Source of the DNA: a virus
IMG/VR virus record: IMGVR_UViG_3300046538_000091
Location: 1-64,000 of that record
Reading direction: 5' to 3' (one strand)
DNA: 64,000 nucleotides
The position numbers were made by a program, and so were the translations under genes. The notes under the pieces were generated by a model. It was given only the letters and a program-made list of their open reading frames with translations. It had not been told where the DNA came from and ran no database searches. This document shows positions 1-7,984 of this stretch, in pieces; positions within the stretch are counted from its first letter, which is position 1; every line of letters begins with the position of its first letter.

Positions 1-209
1 CTTTTCCGATAGGAGTTTACGTCTGACTCCGTAACTGCGGAGTTCCCTGCCAGGCCTTTGTGTGCGGCTCGTACCAGTCCATGGTTTATCGGGGTGGATA
101 GGGCTATGGCCCCCGCAGTCGTCCCAACGACCGTACCGGTACGGGTCCACCCGTGTATGTGGTCCCTCTTTTTTTCAGTTGAAGCGATTTTCTCCAAGTA
201 GATATTCAT
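1..209 (-). CDS. YLEK-tag protein, partial (runs off the left edge)
   Basis: Only the first 69 residues are visible; the gene continues beyond base 1. The protein starts MNIYLEKIAST, the same tag found at the N-terminus of five other minus-strand proteins here. A basic stretch and then a small-residue hydrophobic segment (about residues 25-45) follow. The ATG overlaps the TGA of the upstream phosphoesterase gene (TGATG), so the two are translationally coupled. I infer a small virion or injected protein; no enzymatic domain is recognisable in the visible part. Confidence 0.7.
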   Translation of the reverse strand, partial: MNIYLEKIASTEKKRDHIHGWTRTGTVVGTTAGAIALSTPINHGLVRAAHKGLAGNSAVTESDVNSYRK

Positions 210-1060
210 CACTTCTTATCCGAAAGTACGCCTACGATAAATTCTCGTGCTCCGTCACCAGGTTCACGTTTCTTAGCGACCTTCTCCAAGAAGACGTTAG
301 ACTCGCTCGCCTTTTTATCATGCCCCTTATACGCTCGGTAGGCCGCATGTCCTATCATGGCCACACCTGTACCGATAGCTACCTTGCGAGTTACCTTGGC
401 CGCAATATTTGCACGATCTACCATCTTCGAGTTCGTAGTGGCCCCGGTCACAAGCTCAGACATGTATCCTTTTGAAAATGGCTTTCCAGCAGCTTTTGCC
501 TTAGCCATATAGTTTTCACGATGCAGTTCAATAGCAGGCTTCATCTTCTCCGCTACCTTCTTACCAAGGTACTTCGAGCTTGCAGCAAGGCCGAGGCCAG
601 CATAGCCTTCCATCGCTACGGACGCATCGTTGTTCTTAGCAGCAGCGGCCTTTTCAAGGTAGGGGTTCTTGTCGTCCAACGCTTTCTTCCTGAGAAATAG
701 CCAAGCCTTCTCACCGTAATGTTCAGGGGCTTTTTTGATTAAGAAACGATCACCGTTGTTTAGCTCAAGATGATAGTCATTGTTGATTGTCTGGGAACTA
801 CCTTTCTGAGCGTAGTCTATTACTTGGGTACCTGCCCCGTACTGACCGTCAGGGATAACGATGCTTGGAGTAGTGGCGTAATGGGCCGTATGGACTGGCT
901 GCTCCCATAGGATCGTAGGTTTACCTACTTCCGGGAACTCCTTTTTAGACGCCCACGAAAAAGCTTTGTCATCAATTACGATTCTATAGTCGTAATGTAA
1001 TCCCGCTCGTTTAGCGTCGTGCTTCTGTCTAACGAAAAGTACTGGGGTCGGATTCTTCAT
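209..1060 (-). CDS. LigD-type 3'-phosphoesterase domain fused to YLEK-tagged tail
   Basis: 283 aa. Residues 9-110 match the 3'-phosphoesterase (PE) domain of bacterial DNA ligase D, which trims 3'-phosphate and ribonucleotide ends during end joining. The KH-x7-HYDYR signature is at residues 13-26 (H14, H22, D24, R26; two residues longer than the usual spacing), VHTAH at 56-60, and IPDGQYGAG at 69-77. The remainder is not ligase or polymerase: it has NPYLEKAA at 132-139, a basic alanine-rich region with a possible hydrophobic helix (228-240), and a second tag SNVFLEKVA near 254-262. A late box lies 7 bp upstream of the start. Inference: an end-processing enzyme delivered with the virion. The domain call is firm; the role is inferred. 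Confidence 0.8.
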   Translation of the reverse strand: MKNPTPVLFVRQKHDAKRAGLHYDYRIVIDDKAFSWASKKEFPEVGKPTILWEQPVHTAHYATTPSIVIPDGQYGAGTQVIDYAQKGSSQTINNDYHLELNNGDRFLIKKAPEHYGEKAWLFLRKKALDDKNPYLEKAAAAKNNDASVAMEGYAGLGLAASSKYLGKKVAEKMKPAIELHRENYMAKAKAAGKPFSKGYMSELVTGATTNSKMVDRANIAAKVTRKVAIGTGVAMIGHAAYRAYKGHDKKASESNVFLEKVAKKREPGDGAREFIVGVLSDKK

Positions 1061-1066
1061 TTTTCT

Positions 1067-1074
1067 ATTTTAAC
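1067..1074 (-). promoter_or_regulatory. late-type box GTTAAAAT
   Basis: Read on the minus strand it is GTTAAAATAG, 7 bp before the ATG of the phosphoesterase gene. It matches the box found before most minus-strand units. Confidence 0.5.
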
Positions 1075-1090
1075 GGCGACCCTACCTTGA

Positions 1091-1110
1091 TTGGTATAAG
1101 AGATATGGAT
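1091..1110 (+). promoter_or_regulatory. GGTATAAG promoter
   Basis: TTGGTATAAG at 1091-1100 starts the 1134 gene unit. No convincing hairpin follows here. Divergent from the late box at 1067. Confidence 0.65.
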
Positions 1111-1133
1111 AACAACACATGGGGAGATTTCGC

Positions 1134-1505
1134 ATGCAATCCAAAAGATACATATCTGATCTTGCAAGACTTACGTACATAGGTAAGGAAAAACTCTTAA
1201 GTCTATTTCGAGTGAAGCCTACAAAACCTGTGGATATCATAAAGGCGGAACTGGAAGCAATGGTTACCCGTCTTGCTCAGGATCATAAGACCTCAGAAGA
1301 GGCTATCAAAAATCTCATGACGGAGGCCTCGGAGTTACTAGAGGAGCTCAGAGTTCGTGAGGAAGAAGAGATGAAACAGTGGAGGGCCAATGCAAGTGAG
1401 TGGCTGCTTAAGGCAGGAGTCGATTCAAAATGTGTTGAGGAGTTCCTCAAAAATCCTACCTTGGCAAACCTCGAAGAGTTACGTAAAAAATACCCTTGCT
1501 CTTAA
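1134..1505 (+). CDS. small coiled-coil protein, unknown
   Basis: 123 aa, unrecognised. The start at 1134 is chosen because GGGGAG sits 8 bp upstream; an earlier in-frame ATG at 1119 overlaps that ribosome site. The N-terminal 30 residues are basic, and residues 40-95 are a charged, Glu-rich helix with heptad-like Leu (LLEELRVREEEEM), likely coiled coil. It has its own GGTATAAG promoter and a terminator just after it, so it is a single-gene early cassette. Confidence 0.7.
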   Translation: MQSKRYISDLARLTYIGKEKLLSLFRVKPTKPVDIIKAELEAMVTRLAQDHKTSEEAIKNLMTEASELLEELRVREEEEMKQWRANASEWLLKAGVDSKCVEEFLKNPTLANLEELRKKYPCS

Positions 1506-1518
1506 AAGTAAGGGACTG

Positions 1519-1543
1519 GAGGCCCGTAACTGGGCTTCTTTTA
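1519..1543 (+). terminator. rho-independent terminator
   Basis: GCCC-N6-GGGC stem followed by TTCTTTTAG, 14 bp after the 1134 gene. Confidence 0.6.
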
Positions 1544-1566
1544 GCCTGTCAATAAAACAAACCGTT

Positions 1567-1590
1567 TTGGTATAACTAAAGTGTAGCACC
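1567..1590 (+). promoter_or_regulatory. GGTATAAC promoter of the RT operon
   Basis: TTGGTATAAC at 1567-1576 then AAAGTGTAG. It precedes an approximately 80-nt leader and the 52-aa, 165-aa and reverse transcriptase genes. Confidence 0.6.
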
Positions 1591-1668
1591 TTGTTTTACG
1601 ATGAGAAGCCCACTCAAGGAAATTGTAAACCAAACCCAACCCTCAAAGAAAAACTAAATACGGTAAAC

Positions 1669-1827
1669 ATGACTATGAACGCAGGCACTTTTGATTTTTC
1701 CGCAATGTCCTCTGAACAACTGCTCGCCCTTGTCAAACATCTGGCCTTGGAAGTATGGGCTAGATCTAGCGGGGTGAGAAAGGTAGTTGTACATGTTGTG
1801 AAACGAATCAAAGGCTGGTTTATCTAA
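1669..1827 (+). CDS. 52-aa protein at the head of the RT operon
   Basis: Start at ATG 1669 gives MTMNAGTFDFSAM; a TTG-start extension to 1591 would begin almost at the inferred transcript start and is less likely. The sequence has a short amphipathic helix (SEQLLALVKHLALEVW) then a basic tail (RKVVVHVVKRIKGW). No ribosome site is obvious. It could be a small partner of the RT, or part of the region could instead be structured RNA. Function unknown. Confidence 0.4.
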   Translation: MTMNAGTFDFSAMSSEQLLALVKHLALEVWARSSGVRKVVVHVVKRIKGWFI

Positions 1828-1848
1828 CCGAGCTTAGGAGGCTCTCTA

Positions 1849-2346
1849 ATGGCGATTCGCCCTAGCACCACCGCTTCACCTCGGGATACGTTGAAATGTC
1901 TTCGACCTCACAAGGGTCTTATGTGTTTTAACTCCGAGGCAGGCCACTACGAGAAATACGCAGTGGTCACGGGAACCCCTAACAACGCGGGGTTCGTTCC
2001 TCTTGAAAAGCATGTAGGAGTAGTGCGCCTTGGCGTTATCTACTTGAAGAATATCGGATCTGTTCGGAGTGGTTTCTATGCTGTCTTCCCTCGTGACATC
2101 TACCGTCGAAGAATCGACGCAAGACCCGTTCGACGACTCTCAATTGAGGAAGCAACTCTCCTCCTTGGAGGGAACCTTGATCACCTTGGATTGCCAGAAG
2201 CAACCCTTGGAGAACTCGATGCCTCAATCGAACCGCGAACTATCGAAACTTCTCAGAGTGCAGAGCTCAGCGACGCTGACGTATGCTTCGAAGAACAAAT
2301 CCGATCACTACAAGCTTCTGAAGATTCCGAAGAAGGGTGGTTATAG
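1849..2346 (+). CDS. 165-aa protein overlapping the RT gene
   Basis: Strong ribosome site (TTAGGAGG) 8 bp before the ATG. Residues 1-105 look like a folded beta-rich domain (YEKYAVVTGTPNNAGFVPL; GVIYLKN); the last 50 are acidic. Its last 128 bp overlap the RT gene in another frame. I do not recognise the family. Position between the promoter and a retron-like RT is where retron accessory or effector genes usually sit, so an RT-associated role is plausible. Whether the acidic C-terminus is all translated cannot be told from sequence. Confidence 0.6.
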   Translation: MAIRPSTTASPRDTLKCLRPHKGLMCFNSEAGHYEKYAVVTGTPNNAGFVPLEKHVGVVRLGVIYLKNIGSVRSGFYAVFPRDIYRRRIDARPVRRLSIEEATLLLGGNLDHLGLPEATLGELDASIEPRTIETSQSAELSDADVCFEEQIRSLQASEDSEEGWL

Positions 2347-3181
2347 GGTCGTTTACAACCCAAGCAATCTCATGCGTTTGTTGCAGTTCCGAATCTTGAA
2401 GGAGGTCCTAGAGAAGTACTTCGAGATCCCGGATTACATTTACGCTTTCGAACGGGATAAATCTATCCCTGTCATGGCGAAGATGCATGAGGGCAGCTTG
2501 CAAGTTGTAAGCCTTGACATCAAGGACTACTTTCCGAGCATTAAGCAAAACGTTCTGAAAGACTTGATGCAAAGCGTCGGCTTCGGAGAGTCTCCGGCCC
2601 GCACCTTATCGGAGCTTATGACCTTAGGGCCAAATGTTCCGCAGGGTGGATTGACCAGTCCAAAGATTAGCAACGTGGTTGCCTCTAGGACTTTCGGGCC
2701 TGTGGTAAAGAAGTTCTGCGAAGACAGGGGCCTGGCCCTTACCATCTACGCAGATGACATCACGATTTCTTCGAAGGCAGACTTCAACGCCCAAGAAGCT
2801 ATCGAGTTCGTGTCTGGGGTTCTCGTCGGCTTTGGCTTCCGGGTCAATAAGGCTAAGACGAAAGTAATGAAGAAAGGTACTCGACGCAGTCGTTTGTATG
2901 TGTGCGGTACCGTTGTGAACGAGAAGGTGAATCTCCTCCGGAACGAGCGTCTTCGGTTAAGAGCCGTCGTTCACAACAGTGTTAAAAATGGTCTGGAAGC
3001 AGAAGCGTCTAAGACCGGTCTCACCGCAAACGAATTCTTAATGAGAGTTCGTGGCAAGCTCAACTGGTTTGGACAGCTAAACCCTGAAGGGTCTTCGAAA
3101 CTCATCGAACGATTCCAAGGGGCATGCACGGATTGGGAAGTGATCAACCGATCAACTCCTTACCAACACCAGCCTGGGTAA
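2219..3181 (+). CDS. retron-like reverse transcriptase
   Basis: 320 aa from ATG 2219, chosen because TTGGAG lies 6 bp upstream and the residues just after it match the usual RT N-terminal helix. Motifs in order: IPKKGGYRVVYNP (36-48), MAKMH (86-90, comparable to the retron NAxxH), LDIKDYFPS (99-107, first catalytic Asp), VPQGGLTSPKISN (140-152), IYADD (176-180, catalytic Asp pair), and YVCGTVVN (227-234, in the place of the retron VTG motif). QGxxxSP argues against a diversity-generating retroelement. No maturase or endonuclease domain is seen. It synthesises DNA from an RNA template; the template here is unknown. Operon: 52-aa, 165-aa, RT. Confidence 0.9.
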   Translation: MPQSNRELSKLLRVQSSATLTYASKNKSDHYKLLKIPKKGGYRVVYNPSNLMRLLQFRILKEVLEKYFEIPDYIYAFERDKSIPVMAKMHEGSLQVVSLDIKDYFPSIKQNVLKDLMQSVGFGESPARTLSELMTLGPNVPQGGLTSPKISNVVASRTFGPVVKKFCEDRGLALTIYADDITISSKADFNAQEAIEFVSGVLVGFGFRVNKAKTKVMKKGTRRSRLYVCGTVVNEKVNLLRNERLRLRAVVHNSVKNGLEAEASKTGLTANEFLMRVRGKLNWFGQLNPEGSSKLIERFQGACTDWEVINRSTPYQHQPG

Positions 3182-3298
3182 AACGCTGTACAACGCAAAC
3201 TGTTTGGAATCTGAACATGAACAGTAAGCTATGGGCTTCTCAAGATTCGATCAAAGAAAACACTGTGCTTCAACACCAATAAAGACTACACCCGTTTT
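3182..3298 (+). ncRNA. 117-nt untranslated tail of the RT operon, possible structured RNA
   Basis: Non-coding stretch between the RT stop and its terminator. It contains the inverted repeat ACTGTT-N15-AACAGT and a second pairing around AAGC-N4-GGCTT. It could be only a 3' UTR or could contain a template RNA; no clear msr/msd structure was identified by eye. Confidence 0.25.
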
Positions 3299-3334
3299 GA
3301 GGATTCCTCGGCGAAAGCCGGGGGCCTCGTTTTA
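3299..3334 (+). terminator. terminator of the RT operon
   Basis: Inner hairpin CTCGGC-GAAA-GCCGGG nested in GAGG...CCTC, followed by GTTTTAG. Confidence 0.75.
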
Positions 3335-3354
3335 GCCCAGATGAGGTCTCTAAA

Positions 3355-3380
3355 TTGGTATAAGTATTATGTAATGAAAC
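3355..3380 (+). promoter_or_regulatory. GGTATAAG promoter
   Basis: TTGGTATAAG at 3355-3364, 33 bp before the 3397 gene. No clear leader hairpin. Confidence 0.65.
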
Positions 3381-3396
3381 TAGAGGTTGTACGCTA

Positions 3397-3783
3397 ATGA
3401 AAACCGTAATCTGGAATCGTCGCCTGATTGATGGATCAATTCAGGAAGTCAGTTTTACAGCACTGTTTTCGGAAGATCACCAGTCTGTAGATACCTACTT
3501 AGAAGAAATGGCCAGGAGGGCAGGGGTTATCCGAATCAAGGCAACATTCACGGAGGAGATGAGCCGAATTGAGCTTGCGTATGAAATCGATCTAATCTTT
3601 GCTAAAGACAGAGACGATATCATTAAGGCCAGTGAATACTATACTGCCAAGGCAATGATCTTGGTGGTGCGATACGCCCTCTCGGACGAAAGGGATTCGC
3701 AGGAAGTAGCGCAGGAAACATTCAAACACTTCCTTGCCAAGGTTAAATTCAACCCGTCATCTGATGTTGAGATGGCTGCATGA
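3397..3783 (+). CDS. 128-aa hypothetical protein
   Basis: Unrecognised. Mixed alpha/beta pattern; N-terminus MKTVIWNRRLIDGSIQEV looks like a beta hairpin, followed by helices rich in Glu and Ala. Single-gene cassette with its own promoter (3355) and a terminator immediately after its stop. Confidence 0.65.
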   Translation: MKTVIWNRRLIDGSIQEVSFTALFSEDHQSVDTYLEEMARRAGVIRIKATFTEEMSRIELAYEIDLIFAKDRDDIIKASEYYTAKAMILVVRYALSDERDSQEVAQETFKHFLAKVKFNPSSDVEMAA

Positions 3784-3786
3784 ACT

Positions 3787-3806
3787 GAGGGCTTCCGCCC
3801 TCTTTT
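3787..3806 (+). terminator. terminator between convergent genes
   Basis: GAGGGC-TTCC-GCCCTC followed by TTTT, right after the 3397 gene and touching the end of the spike gene. Confidence 0.75.
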
Positions 3807-4947
3807 AACCTAGCTGAACCCCAGCAGGAGTGATGTGTACGAAGTGGCCACCAGAGGCGTCCATGAGGATAGAGTCAACCAGGACCTGTGTAACGGTACT
3901 TCCTTTTTTAGTAACTACGCCAGTAGCATTGATCGTCACAGAAGAGTCGTTGTTGTAATTCAGAACAATGGTGTCCTTTACTACGCTAACGGTGCAGAAG
4001 GTGCCGTTGGTTGTGGTTACGGCCCAAGCAGCGTTGGTATTGTTGACCGCACTTGTGCTAGTACCGTCAGTAGTAGTCATCGTCCAGGCACCGTTGGTAT
4101 TGACCATGGTGCTGTAGTGGGAACCGTCTGGAGTTTTAGTAGTGGTGGTTACGTTCCCGAGGAGGTCAGTCTCTTCGATACGAAGAGTGGCACCGGTACC
4201 ATCTACAACCATGACTCGTTTTAGAGGCCCGCCTGGGGTTGCAGAGCCACCGGCTGAACCTAGTTCATAGGTGTCCTTCAGAGCCGCAGCAGTATCCACG
4301 TCTCCGTACATTTCTTGGTAACGGAAAATACCTGACCGAGCTTCTGCTACGGTTCGAGCGTAAGCAGAGTACTTGTATACTGTTCCTTTTACCGAAGCGT
4401 ATACATCGACGCCCACCTCAGACATAAACTCTAGGTTCCGACCTACGAGTCGAACACAGTCATCGAACTTACTAATGATGATCTGAGCGAGGACGCTGGC
4501 CTTAAGCAGAACCGTGCCTGCACGAAGAACACCCATCATGCCACCGCCCTCAGAAGAGAGGATGGTATCTCCTGCCATCATATCTCCGGCCTTACCGGAG
4601 TTGTACGAGTCACCAGAGAGTGGGGTGAGCTTGCCGGTATCTCCGAAAGAGGAGCCCGTGTCAATTGCCAGAGGCGTAGATGGATCTCGGTCGATTCTAG
4701 GAAGGAATCCGTCAATGACGGGATAACCAAGACCGGTAGATAGCTTTACCCGATCACCCATCTTTGGAGTGAACGAAGATGAAGCCCGGCCACCACCACC
4801 AGAAGGAGATACCCAGATAACGTTGTCGTAACGTTGACCTTGAATGGTTTTAACGGTGCAGCAATACCGCTGAGCATCTACGCTCAGAACTGTGCCTTCG
4901 AGGACGTCCCGGGAAACCGGAGTTGTTTGATTGAATATGCTACTCAT
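3805..4947 (-). CDS. baseplate spike / puncturing-type protein
   Basis: 380 aa. Residues 15-85 resemble an OB-fold as in gp5/gpV-type tail spikes (VLEGTVLSVDAQRYCCTVKT; MGDRVKL). The middle is Gly/Ser rich. Residues 240-380 are a run of short beta strands with recurring TTTTDGT, TMVNTNGAWTMTTTDGT and AAWAVTTTNGT units, typical of a trimeric beta-helix ending in a tip (FVHITPAGVQLG). It lies downstream of the tube and sheath genes on the same strand, with its own late-type box. Likely the central spike; no lysozyme domain is seen in it. Confidence 0.65.
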   Translation of the reverse strand: MSSIFNQTTPVSRDVLEGTVLSVDAQRYCCTVKTIQGQRYDNVIWVSPSGGGGRASSSFTPKMGDRVKLSTGLGYPVIDGFLPRIDRDPSTPLAIDTGSSFGDTGKLTPLSGDSYNSGKAGDMMAGDTILSSEGGGMMGVLRAGTVLLKASVLAQIIISKFDDCVRLVGRNLEFMSEVGVDVYASVKGTVYKYSAYARTVAEARSGIFRYQEMYGDVDTAAALKDTYELGSAGGSATPGGPLKRVMVVDGTGATLRIEETDLLGNVTTTTKTPDGSHYSTMVNTNGAWTMTTTDGTSTSAVNNTNAAWAVTTTNGTFCTVSVVKDTIVLNYNNDSSVTINATGVVTKKGSTVTQVLVDSILMDASGGHFVHITPAGVQLG

Positions 4948-4953
4948 AATCTC

Positions 4954-4961
4954 AGTTTAAC
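4954..4961 (-). promoter_or_regulatory. late-type box GTTAAACT
   Basis: Minus-strand GTTAAACTGA 6 bp before the spike gene start; a variant of GYTAAAAT. Confidence 0.4.
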
Positions 4962-4971
4962 GTTGTCCATT

Positions 4972-5000
4972 CGGGTATAAGTAAGGTAGATAAAACTATT
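4972..5000 (+). promoter_or_regulatory. GGTATAAG promoter
   Basis: CGGGTATAAG at 4972-4981 followed by AAGGTAGATAAAACTAT. Serves the two tiny membrane-protein genes. Divergent from the late-type box at 4954. Confidence 0.65.
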
Positions 5001-5018
5001 ACTAACCTAGGAGGAGTC

Positions 5019-5117
5019 ATGAAAGTGTTCTTGATGCTGGTGAGAGATCTTACCATCGCAGCACTACTGCTCTATGCTCTGTCCCTCACTATCCTATACT
5101 TGGTGTTAAAAGTATGA
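5019..5117 (+). CDS. 32-aa single-span membrane protein
   Basis: Preceded by a strong ribosome site (AGGAGGAG, 5 bp before the ATG). Nearly the whole protein is one hydrophobic helix (DLTIAALLLYALSLTILYLVL) with a Lys before its end. The ATGA overlap with the next gene implies coupled translation. Function unknown. Confidence 0.6.
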   Translation: MKVFLMLVRDLTIAALLLYALSLTILYLVLKV

Positions 5118-5221
5118 CCCACCTGATTTTCAACTTCGTTACAGAACATCCCATCAGCATGATCGCTATCGTAGCTGCCTTGATACTTTGGGGAGCGGAT
5201 AGGGTGAGGGGCTCTAAGTAG
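5114..5221 (+). CDS. 35-aa single-span membrane protein
   Basis: Starts at the ATGA overlap with the previous gene. One membrane helix (MIAIVAALILWGA) followed by a positive tail (DRVRGSK), so probably inserted with the C-terminus in the cytoplasm. Its 3' end overlaps by 8 bp the 3' end of the convergent 284-aa gene. Function unknown. Confidence 0.55.
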   Translation: MTHLIFNFVTEHPISMIAIVAALILWGADRVRGSK

Positions 5222-6068
5222 AAGAACCCGTCGCGTGCGATATTGCAGCGGCGGTTCTTTTTAGGTGTGCAGAAGTAGGGTTACCTAGATACTTATACGC
5301 TTCATGCTTAAAGCCGCCTACCGGAACCTTAGACTCTGCACCATGTTTGAGAGGGTTGGTGATGAAAGTCTTCTTGAGGAAATCTACGGCTTTTTTACCG
5401 TATTTGTTTCCTTGAACAGCCTTGCTTCCTGCAAGAGCTTTTGCACCGTCGAGAATAGCAGCACCCGGCTCAATAGGAGCCACTGATATTGAGCTTAGCA
5501 AAGGCAGTGCCTGAGTGTGCTTGCCTGGAACAAAGTTAGATCCTACTGGGACCTTTCCATGACCAATGTTCTTAGCGATGTTGCTGAGCAACGGATGGCT
5601 TTTGTCCTTCCACAGTTTTGACAATTCACCTAAGTGCTTATCGCTAAGGTTTTTGATCGTCGGCAGGTGTTTCTGAAGAACTCCGTGAACCGCTTTAACT
5701 ACGGGGTCCTCGTGCATATTCAGTTTCTTAAGCGTATCGAACTTACCTTCTACAGCCATTCGTGCAGCAGCTCGTTGACGTTTGGTAGCACCATGAAGAA
5801 CCTCGCTGAGATGACCCCCTGCCTCGTGAGCAGCAGTGTGAGCCGCAGCCACGTCTGGAGTAATTACCGACGTTGCACTCCTCGCAGCCTTGGCCTTAAG
5901 CGATTTGTTTACTACACCGTGGTATCCCTCAGTAAAAGAGTTGGCGAGGTACTTCGCAACCTTCTTACTCTTGAGAGCTTGGTTGGTAGCGATGTTCTGT
6001 GCAAGGTGAGAAATGGCAGTACCAGCCAAGAGGCTAGACTGTTTCTCCAGGTAGGGGTTCTTAGTCAT
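5214..6068 (-). CDS. YLEK-tag basic protein, 284 aa
   Basis: Begins MTKNPYLEKQSS, the tag shared by other late-strand proteins. The rest is strongly basic and rich in Lys, Ala and His (KSKKVAKYLANS; TKRQRAAARMAVEG), mostly helical, and ends in Ala/Ser. No enzymatic motif found. Its composition suits a DNA-associated internal virion protein. It has a late box 7 bp upstream and stands alone between the spike and the small-RNA-like region. Confidence 0.7.
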   Translation of the reverse strand: MTKNPYLEKQSSLLAGTAISHLAQNIATNQALKSKKVAKYLANSFTEGYHGVVNKSLKAKAARSATSVITPDVAAAHTAAHEAGGHLSEVLHGATKRQRAAARMAVEGKFDTLKKLNMHEDPVVKAVHGVLQKHLPTIKNLSDKHLGELSKLWKDKSHPLLSNIAKNIGHGKVPVGSNFVPGKHTQALPLLSSISVAPIEPGAAILDGAKALAGSKAVQGNKYGKKAVDFLKKTFITNPLKHGAESKVPVGGFKHEAYKYLGNPTSAHLKRTAAAISHATGSST

Positions 6069-6074
6069 GGATGA

Positions 6075-6082
6075 ATTTTAGC
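6075..6082 (-). promoter_or_regulatory. late-type box GCTAAAAT
   Basis: Minus-strand GCTAAAATTC just upstream of the 284-aa YLEK gene. Confidence 0.5.
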
Positions 6083-6084
6083 GC

Positions 6085-6248
6085 AAAAGAAAACCCGTAC
6101 TAGACGGGTTGAAGTGGTTAAGACCTGTTTGTTTCGTGGCGGAATTCCCTCTGGAAAACCCTAAGACCCCAATAAGGGTCAGACCCCGTCTCTACCTCTC
6201 GCGGTAAAGTACGGCAGGAATGTTTCTATTAGACGGTAATATTTTAAC
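6085..6248 (-). ncRNA. candidate late small RNA
   Basis: On the minus strand a late box GTTAAAAT (plus-strand 6241-6248) is followed by about 130 nt with no ATG-started frame and then a good terminator: AACCCGT-N5-ACGGGTT (6092-6110) with TTCTTTT. The insert has internal pairing such as GGGTCTGACCC. The unit is therefore promoter-like box, structured RNA, terminator. Confidence 0.35.
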
Positions 6249-6249
6249 A

Positions 6250-6275
6250 AAAAGAAACCCGCATTGCACGGGCCT
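6250..6275 (-). terminator. minus-strand terminator
   Basis: Minus-strand CCCG-N7-CGGG followed by TTTCTTTTT. There is no minus-strand gene between here and 7310, so it may end a short transcript from 6276-6416. Confidence 0.45.
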
Positions 6276-6402
6276 TAGGGCACTCACTAGGCTGAAGCTA
6301 GGAGGAAGGTGGGTAACTGGATGCAGTCACGTTGAGGGTATCTTAACTCAATATTTGAAAGGGTACTCATTTAGTGAGTACCCCTCAATATTTGGAAACG
6401 GT
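6276..6402. other. intergenic region with palindrome
   Basis: No gene. Contains GGGTACTCA-N5-TGAGTACCC (6361-6383), flanked on both sides by CTCAATATTTG (6349-6359 and 6384-6394). The palindrome sits 22 bp upstream of the promoter of the BRO-N gene and recurs inside that gene at 6641-6663, suggesting an operator. Confidence 0.6.
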
Positions 6403-6432
6403 TTGGTATAACTAGATTGAGGAAGAACCTCA
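6403..6432 (+). promoter_or_regulatory. GGTATAAC promoter with 5' hairpin
   Basis: TTGGTATAAC at 6403-6412 followed by a perfect hairpin TGAGG-AAGAA-CCTCA at 6418-6432. Drives the BRO-N gene. Confidence 0.7.
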
Positions 6433-6458
6433 CTACTACTTTCTATGAGACCTTACCA

Positions 6459-7229
6459 ATGAACCAACTTGCTTTAGCTGTTCCCGCTAACAACCCTCTC
6501 GACATCTTCAACTTCGAAGGTAACGAGGTTCGTACCACTGCTGTTAATGGTGACCCTTGGTTCGTAGCCAATGACATCTCAAGTGCCCTGGATTACCGAG
6601 ATTCCTTCAACATGGTTCGCACGATGGACGATGATGAAAAGGGTACTCATACTGTGAGTACCCTTGGCGGGGACCAGCAAATGCTGGTGATTAACGAGTC
6701 AGGCCTCTACTCTGCCATCCTCCGTAGCCGAAAGCCGGAAGCTAAGCGCTTCAAGAAGTGGGTCACTTCCGTGCTGATTCCCGGCATCCGTAAGAAAGAA
6801 TTCGTTCACATTTCGGAGGCCAGATCGTCTTTCGATTCGTACGAAACTTTGCGTGCTGAAATGAGAGAGATGAAGGAGATGATGATGTCCCTTATCTCTG
6901 CCCCTATCGAAGTCCCGGTTACTCGCAAAGTTGCGGTGGAGTCGAAGCCTGCTCCCGTGGTGCTGACCATTGACCAAGCTCGTAAGGAGAAAGGCCTCCT
7001 CTCCATCGCCCAGATCGCAAATCGCCTGGGCATGAAGGCCTCTCGGCTCAATGCCATTTTCGAGATCTTGGGTTTCCATACTCGTGTAAGCAATCGCTAC
7101 ACTGCGACCAGTAAGGCAACTGGCTTTATTGAGTTCCTTGGCAAGTCCAACTATCGTGGTCAAGGTTCGGTAGATAAGTACTTCTGGAAGGAATCCGTTA
7201 TCTCCAAGATTCCAAAGAAGTACTTGTAA
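6459..7229 (+). CDS. BRO-N antirepressor-like regulator
   Basis: 256 aa from ATG 6459 (GAGACCTT is 8 bp before it; an upstream TTG frame runs into the leader hairpin). Residues 14-112 are a BRO-N DNA-binding domain (FNFEGNEVRTT; GDPWFVANDISSALDY; LINESGLYSAILRS-type strand; FKKWVTSVLIPGIRKK). A coiled segment follows, then a C-terminal domain with a helix-turn-helix-like stretch (SIAQIANRLGMKASRLNAIF). Such proteins act as phage antirepressors or regulators. A copy of the upstream palindrome lies in its coding region at 6641-6663, so autoregulation is likely. A bidirectional terminator follows. Confidence 0.85.
   Translation: MNQLALAVPANNPLDIFNFEGNEVRTTAVNGDPWFVANDISSALDYRDSFNMVRTMDDDEKGTHTVSTLGGDQQMLVINESGLYSAILRSRKPEAKRFKKWVTSVLIPGIRKKEFVHISEARSSFDSYETLRAEMREMKEMMMSLISAPIEVPVTRKVAVESKPAPVVLTIDQARKEKGLLSIAQIANRLGMKASRLNAIFEILGFHTRVSNRYTATSKATGFIEFLGKSNYRGQGSVDKYFWKESVISKIPKKYL
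6641..6663. repeat. intragenic copy of the GGGTACTCA palindrome
   Basis: GGGTACTCA-TACTG-TGAGTACCC inside the BRO-N gene; arms identical to the copy at 6361-6383, different 5-bp centre. Confidence 0.75.
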
Positions 7230-7266
7230 GGCCTGGGGCGTCACTACTGTTGACACCCTCAACAAA

Positions 7267-7300
7267 AACCCCAGCCTAGGCCGGGGTTTCTTTTTAGCTT
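7267..7300. terminator. bidirectional terminator
   Basis: AACCCC-a-GCC-ta-GGC-c-GGGGTT with TTTCTTTTTAG on the plus side and a T run on the minus side; ends the BRO-N and the tail tube genes. Confidence 0.8.
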
Positions 7301-7309
7301 GTCTACGAC

Positions 7310-7984
7310 TTAAGTAATGCTAACCGGGACAGGTCGGTCATACTGAATCGAAACACCTTCGACGATAACTGGGGACTGAGCGTTGACCGAGAAGTTGTAG
7401 CCTTCGATCATGCAGTATTCCAGGTATACGGCGGTCAGGGTTTTACCGTAGCCATCCGAATCGCCACCACGAGTCTTGAATACCAGAAGCAGACCGAAAG
7501 GAACTGCGAAGTACTCAGAGTCCAAGTTCATCATGATGCTTGGAGTAGGTGACTCGGCACCGGAAGCTTTCATGCCGTCTGTGTTCATCAATGGACGGTA
7601 AGCGTTACGGCTCAGAGCGTACAAGATGTTACCGTTGTCAGCCAGCATTCGACCGAACGAGATGGAGCTTGCAGTCTTACCGCGAGTGAAGAACGCACGG
7701 TTAGAACCAATCTCGTACAGACGAGCCAGGTTTGCGCTAGCGCCGTATTGGATGCCGTCGGTAAGACCGATTGGAACCAAGTCGGAAGTAGAGTTAGACA
7801 GGCCGGTATAACGGGCAGGACCTGCGAACATCAAGGTGGTATCTGGGGATGCAGAAAACTGACTGAAACGTTCGTAACCGTCATCAGCCAGCTTGCTTAC
7901 ATAGTCCCCTTTCCAGTCCCAGCCAGTGCTGAAACCGTAGTCGGCTGTTGAGCCGAGCTGATCGTTTTGCTTAGTTACAGACAT
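7310..7984 (-). CDS. tail tube protein (probable)
   Basis: 224 aa, immediately downstream of the sheath gene and a tiny tagged gene, the usual place for the tube. Beta-rich; the C-terminus (KTLTAVYLEYCMIEGYNFSV then SPVIVEGVSIQYDRPVPV) resembles tube-fold strands that form the inner ring. Ribosome site AAGGA before the ATG. The call rests on order and fold pattern rather than a diagnostic motif. A structural role is safe. Confidence 0.6.
   Translation of the reverse strand: MSVTKQNDQLGSTADYGFSTGWDWKGDYVSKLADDGYERFSQFSASPDTTLMFAGPARYTGLSNSTSDLVPIGLTDGIQYGASANLARLYEIGSNRAFFTRGKTASSISFGRMLADNGNILYALSRNAYRPLMNTDGMKASGAESPTPSIMMNLDSEYFAVPFGLLLVFKTRGGDSDGYGKTLTAVYLEYCMIEGYNFSVNAQSPVIVEGVSIQYDRPVPVSIT

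Follow-up and report, generated by a model that had tools for sequence, protein, structure and literature searches.

A palindrome inside phage Bro-N genes changes together with the encoded recognition helix, suggesting an operator carried within the gene of its own reader

The DNA analysed here, referred to as the window, is a stretch of 64,000 nucleotides from a viral record (IMGVR_UViG_3300046538_000091) of 67,773 bases in all. It contains a Bro-N antirepressor-like gene, which matched Pfam PF02498 (E 4.2e-23; 82.2 bits vs a curated cut-off of 25.6) and PHROG 130 (anti-repressor Ant; E 5.6e-47). The role of its product as an antirepressor (Ant) is putative and follows the family annotation. 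Megablast found no nucleotide relatives among GenBank phages. The features of the locus are as follows, where L003 denotes a sister phage.

6347 to 6357, plus strand: direct repeat CTCAATATTTG, copy 1
6359 to 6395, plus strand: 37-bp insertion relative to L003, from the alignment; its placement is ambiguous within the repeat
6361 to 6383, no strand assigned: upstream palindrome copy GGGTACTCA-TTTAG-TGAGTACCC, proposed second operator of this allele
6384 to 6394, plus strand: direct repeat CTCAATATTTG, copy 2, directly after the palindrome and at the place of a -35 box
6404 to 6412, plus strand: extended -10-like TGGTATAAC, the likely Bro-N promoter, identical in L003
6459 to 7229, plus strand: Bro-N antirepressor-like gene, 256 aa, with the Bro-N domain at residues 23-108
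6594 to 6620, plus strand: codons of the predicted recognition helix, residues 46-54 (YRDSFNMVR), from the AlphaFold2 helix 49-53 and the arm-covarying columns
6639 to 6692, plus strand: codons of the beta-hairpin "wing", strands 61-68 and 71-78, from AlphaFold2 secondary structure
6641 to 6663, no strand assigned: intragenic palindrome GGGTACTCA-TACTG-TGAGTACCC, codons 61-69, proposed Bro-N operator

AlphaFold2 predicted helices at residues 37-43 and 49-53 of the Bro-N domain, followed by the beta-hairpin, with a pLDDT of 93-98 in this block. The predicted layout is winged helix-turn-helix-like, and the first strand of the wing is encoded by the intragenic palindrome. A sequence search of the PDB returned no homologue, and Foldseek gave no match to the fold at E 0.001 or better; its weak neighbours were baculovirus CpGV Orf22 (4ye7; E 5.5e-3, probability 1.00) and Dachshund/Ski (Dachshund 1l8r). 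Elsewhere in the window, we observed a retron-type reverse transcriptase gene 3 kb upstream of Bro-N (2069-3181; PADLOC RT_III-A, E 7.5e-61; Ec107-like, 8e-55), a LigD 3'-phosphoesterase-like gene (209-1060; PF13298, E 2.8e-8) and short NPYLEKA-like motifs repeated near the ends of several of the phage proteins.

An earlier reading of the sequence alone (the sequence-only reading) had described the same palindrome before the promoter and inside the Bro-N gene. Both copies were found to be exact and to differ in their centres, and they lie 280 bp apart, as had been claimed. The CTCAATATTTG repeats flanking the upstream copy, at 6347 and 6384, occur nowhere else in the window. In the search for further copies that this reading had proposed, the two sites were the sole matches with at most 3 mismatches, within the window (where 0.01 would be expected) as well as across the complete record. 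The "promoter" of that reading consists of no more than the extended -10-like element; a sigma-70 scan found no full consensus promoter. The analysis of relatives showed that the intragenic arms reach 11 bp (AAGGGTACTCA/TGAGTACCCTT, 6639-6665).

Protein similarity was used to collect Bro-N homologues from viral contigs and from the genomes of bacteria; 1,123 of about 50,700 phage records matched the Bro-N domain of the window. In a set of 212 distinct Bro-N genes chosen independently of the palindrome, 168 carried a palindrome in the same codons, those of the wing strand (residues 61-69), by a mismatch-neutral score, and about 20% of the sampled genes had none. The position was assessed in 126 Bro-N domains less than 80% identical, with synonymous codon shuffling as the control. 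The best inverted repeat scored at least 9 in 50 of these genes, whereas 4.25 genes reached this score at any place in the domain after shuffling. Of the 50 repeats, 49 fell in HMM columns 45-54, the ten columns that hold the window palindrome. The Watson-Crick fraction of arm pairs was 0.74, vs 0.48 (sd 0.0145) after shuffling of the arms. Where the palindrome was recognisable (69 genes), pairing at arm positions 6, 7 and 8 was seen in 100, 96 and 96% of cases, vs 43, 33 and 38% expected. The genes without indels contained 33 distinct arms (9-mers), whose complementarity was kept by paired changes; the amino acids at residues 63 and 67 change in pairs, which the palindrome would force. A distance of 12 bp, roughly one turn of the DNA helix, separates the variable cores of the half-sites (arm positions 5-7). 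In 167 of the 168 genes, the dyad axis coincides with a base. In 154 of the 168 this is the middle base of a codon, such that codons 61-69 pair with their own reverse complements, through either inheritance or selection.

Unrelated palindromes occupy the same place in named phages of Pseudomonas, Bordetella, Paenibacillus, Gordonia, Lactobacillus, Escherichia, Microcystis and Mycobacterium, and the sampled staphylococcal, streptococcal and lactococcal phages and one mycobacterial phage showed no palindrome there. A further 33 Bro-N domains, more distant and taken from whole genomes, included 14 with a palindrome in the expected columns (null 5%) and 19 without one there. The exact window palindrome was present in 71 IMG/VR stretches, mostly within Bro-N genes, vs no match for a permuted arm. 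We also observed three tandem palindromes, with arms of the GGGCGCGCA, GGGTACTCA and GGGTCGGCA types, in one interrupted Bro-N reading frame (L126:420-600), and tandem Bro-N domains in bacterial genomes, two per reading frame or in adjacent frames (G423:C44, G478:C13 and G504:C137). The related families showed strong intragenic palindromes as well. A score of at least 9 was reached in 13 of 25 ORF6N genes (null 5.6%; samples L377-L382 and L471-L500), mostly at columns 72-73 with TCACA-like inner arms, and in 12 of 38 KilA-N genes (null 3.7%; samples L383-L410 and L442-L470), mostly at columns 58-60 with AATT-like centres; the place is thus mostly fixed within each family.

Stems of 9-11 bp with short loops could also act as an mRNA hairpin, through translation, attenuation or antisense pairing like that of the P4 CI/C4 RNA, and the P4 immunity RNA is indeed encoded within a Bro-network gene (PMC10111431). 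However, the interior arm pairs comprised 1259 Watson-Crick and 62 mismatched pairs, and among the latter G-T pairs were rarer than A-C pairs (7 vs 21), the opposite of what an RNA stem would show. Rfam gave no family at gathering score anywhere in the window, and no C4 or P4 CI immunity RNA was among the permissive matches at 6050-7320. A CRISPR repeat model gave the best permissive match there (6362-6399, E 0.2); falling well short of the gathering score of that model, it was set aside. Because the arms show no G-T wobble excess, a hairpin is very unlikely; we rejected it on the wobble counts together with the covariation described below, which an RNA stem does not predict.

The arms vary together with the encoded protein. 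For each residue, we calculated the partial correlation with the arm after removing overall similarity (permutation 95% level, 0.19). In 109 genes, the highest values belonged to residues 54, 51, 47, 46, 48 and 49 (partial r 0.39-0.51), and the next column reached 0.19. Since fetching by the palindrome could have biased this result, the 77 genes not fetched in that way were analysed alone; the signal was kept, with seven of the top eight columns within residues 46-54. In these 77 genes, residues 55-60, which lie between the helix and the palindrome and are nearer to the latter, did not covary with the arm, so that linkage was rejected as the cause. When 59 disjoint nearest-neighbour pairs were compared, residues 47/48/51 differed in 28 of 28 pairs with different cores, vs 6 of 31 pairs that shared a core (p=4.5e-11). 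The best of 300 control column triples reached p 3e-6; other fast-evolving triples thus also associate somewhat with the arm, and phylogeny therefore contributes part of the signal. Genes 87-91% identical elsewhere switch arm and helix together (L134, GGGTACTCA/YRDAGN, vs L245, GGGTCGGCA/YAEAKD), whereas genes 30-35% identical elsewhere have both in common.

The correspondence between helix and arm suggests a readable DNA-recognition code for Bro-N proteins. The R47-D48-N51 helix went with TACTCA...TGAGTA in 14 of 16 unselected genes and in none of 198 others. Across the unselected genes, D48-x-N51 corresponded to the core TACT, I-G-D and M-S-D to TACG, E-S-A to TCTG, E-K-D to TCGG, T-K-D to TAGG, N-R-D mostly to TGTC and V-S-A to TGTG. 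The distant domains yielded one new GGGTACTC site, whose helix, YRDSANMVR, matched the prediction of the code.

These data bear on two further explanations. Template switching at replication, or quasi-palindrome correction, might maintain perfect arms in a palindrome that has no function; this would account for paired arm changes with few intermediates. It would not account for a single fixed place across phages of many hosts, or for covariation with the codons of the recognition helix rather than with nearer codons, and we consider it highly improbable. Another phage DNA-binding protein of the CI/Cro type might recognise the site instead; Bro-N genes are frequently located in immunity regions, as in phage A2, where the gene adjoins cro. 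This too has very little probability: the arms do not recur within 4 kb and covary with the helix of Bro-N itself, and in A2, where we rejected a CI/Cro operator, the annotated CI/Cro operators are unlike the intragenic palindrome. Because arm and recognition helix covary, Bro-N as the reader of the palindrome in its own gene is the simplest explanation, and the encoded protein very probably binds it.

We then considered the upstream copy. Positions 1-6820 of the window are, as a whole, 97% identical to the sister phage. L003 lacks the 37-bp insertion, which carries the upstream palindrome and the second CTCAATATTTG. Its Bro-N gene (compared over window positions 6540-7150) is strongly diverged, apparently a swapped allele in phages otherwise 92-97% identical, which would be expected of an immunity-like locus. 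The divergent allele encodes the helix IGNNRMAI and has a decayed site; the 3' half of this site, TGACACCC, is the one that accompanies N-R-M helices. The swap removed the promoter site along with the helix and the arm. The sequence-only reading had named loss of the palindrome in close relatives by synonymous changes as evidence against its proposal. L003 has neither GGGTACTCA site, but since its helix and allele changed along with the loss, the comparison counts for co-evolution.

The pair of operators on which that reading had built its proposal of looping did not hold as a conserved arrangement. A second site with at most 2 mismatches was absent in 39 of 40 phages with a GGGTACTCA Bro-N, and own-arm second copies within 4 kb (8 of 153) were no commoner than those of control arms (32 of 673). 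A second arm type was checked likewise, and looping was rejected as a family feature; in the window phage itself we regard it as unlikely. The upstream copy is an exception, and what matters most is the site within the gene rather than the pairing of two sites. The view of the palindrome as the operator of a regulator fares better, as the covariation fits Bro-N as its reader. The phage represented by L086 and L149 is the second known case of a pair, and its site arms match its own Bro-N. In L149, the second site ends two bases before the TTGACG of a divergent promoter, and the upstream site of the window ends 17 bp ahead of TATAAC, at the place expected for a -35 box. Both positions fit transcription regulation, by an activator no less than by a repressor. 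In other phage contigs, stand-alone GGGTACTCA palindromes lie just before a ribosome-binding site (L127:7671, two in tandem, and L147:1374), and no Bro-N gene was found in these contigs. In L133, a GGGTACTCA palindrome forms the stem of a terminator-like hairpin (5588) and is followed by a second Bro-N-like palindrome, AAAGGGTGTCG..CGACACCCTTT (5690), upstream of one broken and one intact Bro-N gene.

The gene thus holds a dyad-symmetric site that covaries with the recognition helix it encodes. The palindrome itself, its fixed place, the compensatory changes in its arms, the lack of a wobble excess and the covariation are shown at the sequence level. Taken together, they suggest that Bro-N binds a palindromic double-stranded DNA operator lying within its own gene, with negative feedback as the most likely role, and we give this reading a probability of about 0.76. 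Covariation supports DNA binding by the domain; in corynephage protein ANT8, DNA binding is reported to come from the Bro domain (PMC4257102). Bro-N would bind as a dimer, each subunit placing its helix 46-54 in one half-site. The bound protein would mark its own gene and probably block transcription within the coding sequence as a roadblock. Against this reading, the usual phage has a single site, within the gene and not at a promoter, so that repression would need such a roadblock, and the palindrome is missing from part of the sampled genes, distant domains and phages. Feedback on its own transcription is probable, and its sign is somewhat more likely to be negative than not. In the window phage, a second site with the same arms would have been inserted directly ahead of the -35 position in the Bro-N promoter.

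Alternatively, Bro-N could bind the intragenic palindrome as an identity tag rather than for feedback on itself. A resident Bro-N might, for instance, act on the same gene of a homotypic superinfecting phage, or the site might guide recombination or domain swapping in a homing-endonuclease-like manner. There is usually one site per genome and it is intragenic, specificities have diversified to an extreme degree, and an allele has been swapped within a phage pair otherwise 97% identical, all of which would suit a tag; domain swapping and similarity to homing endonucleases have also been described in the Bro network (PMC10111431). Second copies at promoters in phages with a matching Bro-N (the window and L149), as expected for a transcription regulator, argue against it, and we consider a tag improbable compared with self-feedback.

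Because site and recognition helix change together across evolution, we suggest that the Bro-N gene contains the switch that it operates. Reader and site, about 20 bp apart in one module, would be co-inherited in phage gene swaps and diverge jointly into many specificities. We see an even chance that this is a design of the whole Bro network, extending from Bro-N to KilA-N and ORF6N with their comparable palindromes, and that each gene embeds the operator of its own protein as a portable reader-plus-operator cassette with a simple code, diversifying as an allele-specific, immunity-like system when modules are swapped. Bro-N proteins are among the commonest phage regulators. If our reading is correct, most of their sites could be read straight from their own genes, three helix residues would predict the core of the site, and residues 63 and 67 would be a case of selection for a DNA site overriding protein sequence. 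The reason for an intragenic operator would be that recombination cannot easily split it from its reader.

The window protein belongs to the Bro-N/Ant antirepressors (PF02498, PHROG 130) by its domain, predicted fold and phage context. Full-text searches of open-access literature found no intragenic operator, binding site or recognition code described for Bro-N, and subscription papers may hold more. The N-terminal domain of CpGV Orf22 and Dachshund/Ski share only a weak likeness of fold with Bro-N, and we know of no palindrome in those systems. In the lambda CI/Cro-type repressors, a helix-turn-helix reader recognises a palindromic operator and the specificities co-evolve. Bro-N would share the helix-turn-helix reader, the palindromic operator and the co-evolving specificity with these repressors and with CI/Cro and O1-O3 of phage A2. 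However, the O1-O3 operators are intergenic and present in several copies (A2 record), whereas the proposed principal operator of Bro-N is usually single and lies inside the codons of its reader's own DNA-binding domain. The P4 CI/C4 immunity RNAs are likewise cis-regulatory elements inside a Bro-network gene (PMC10111431); they act through RNA-RNA pairing, whereas the evidence for Bro-N, which has no Rfam match, points to duplex DNA and a protein helix.
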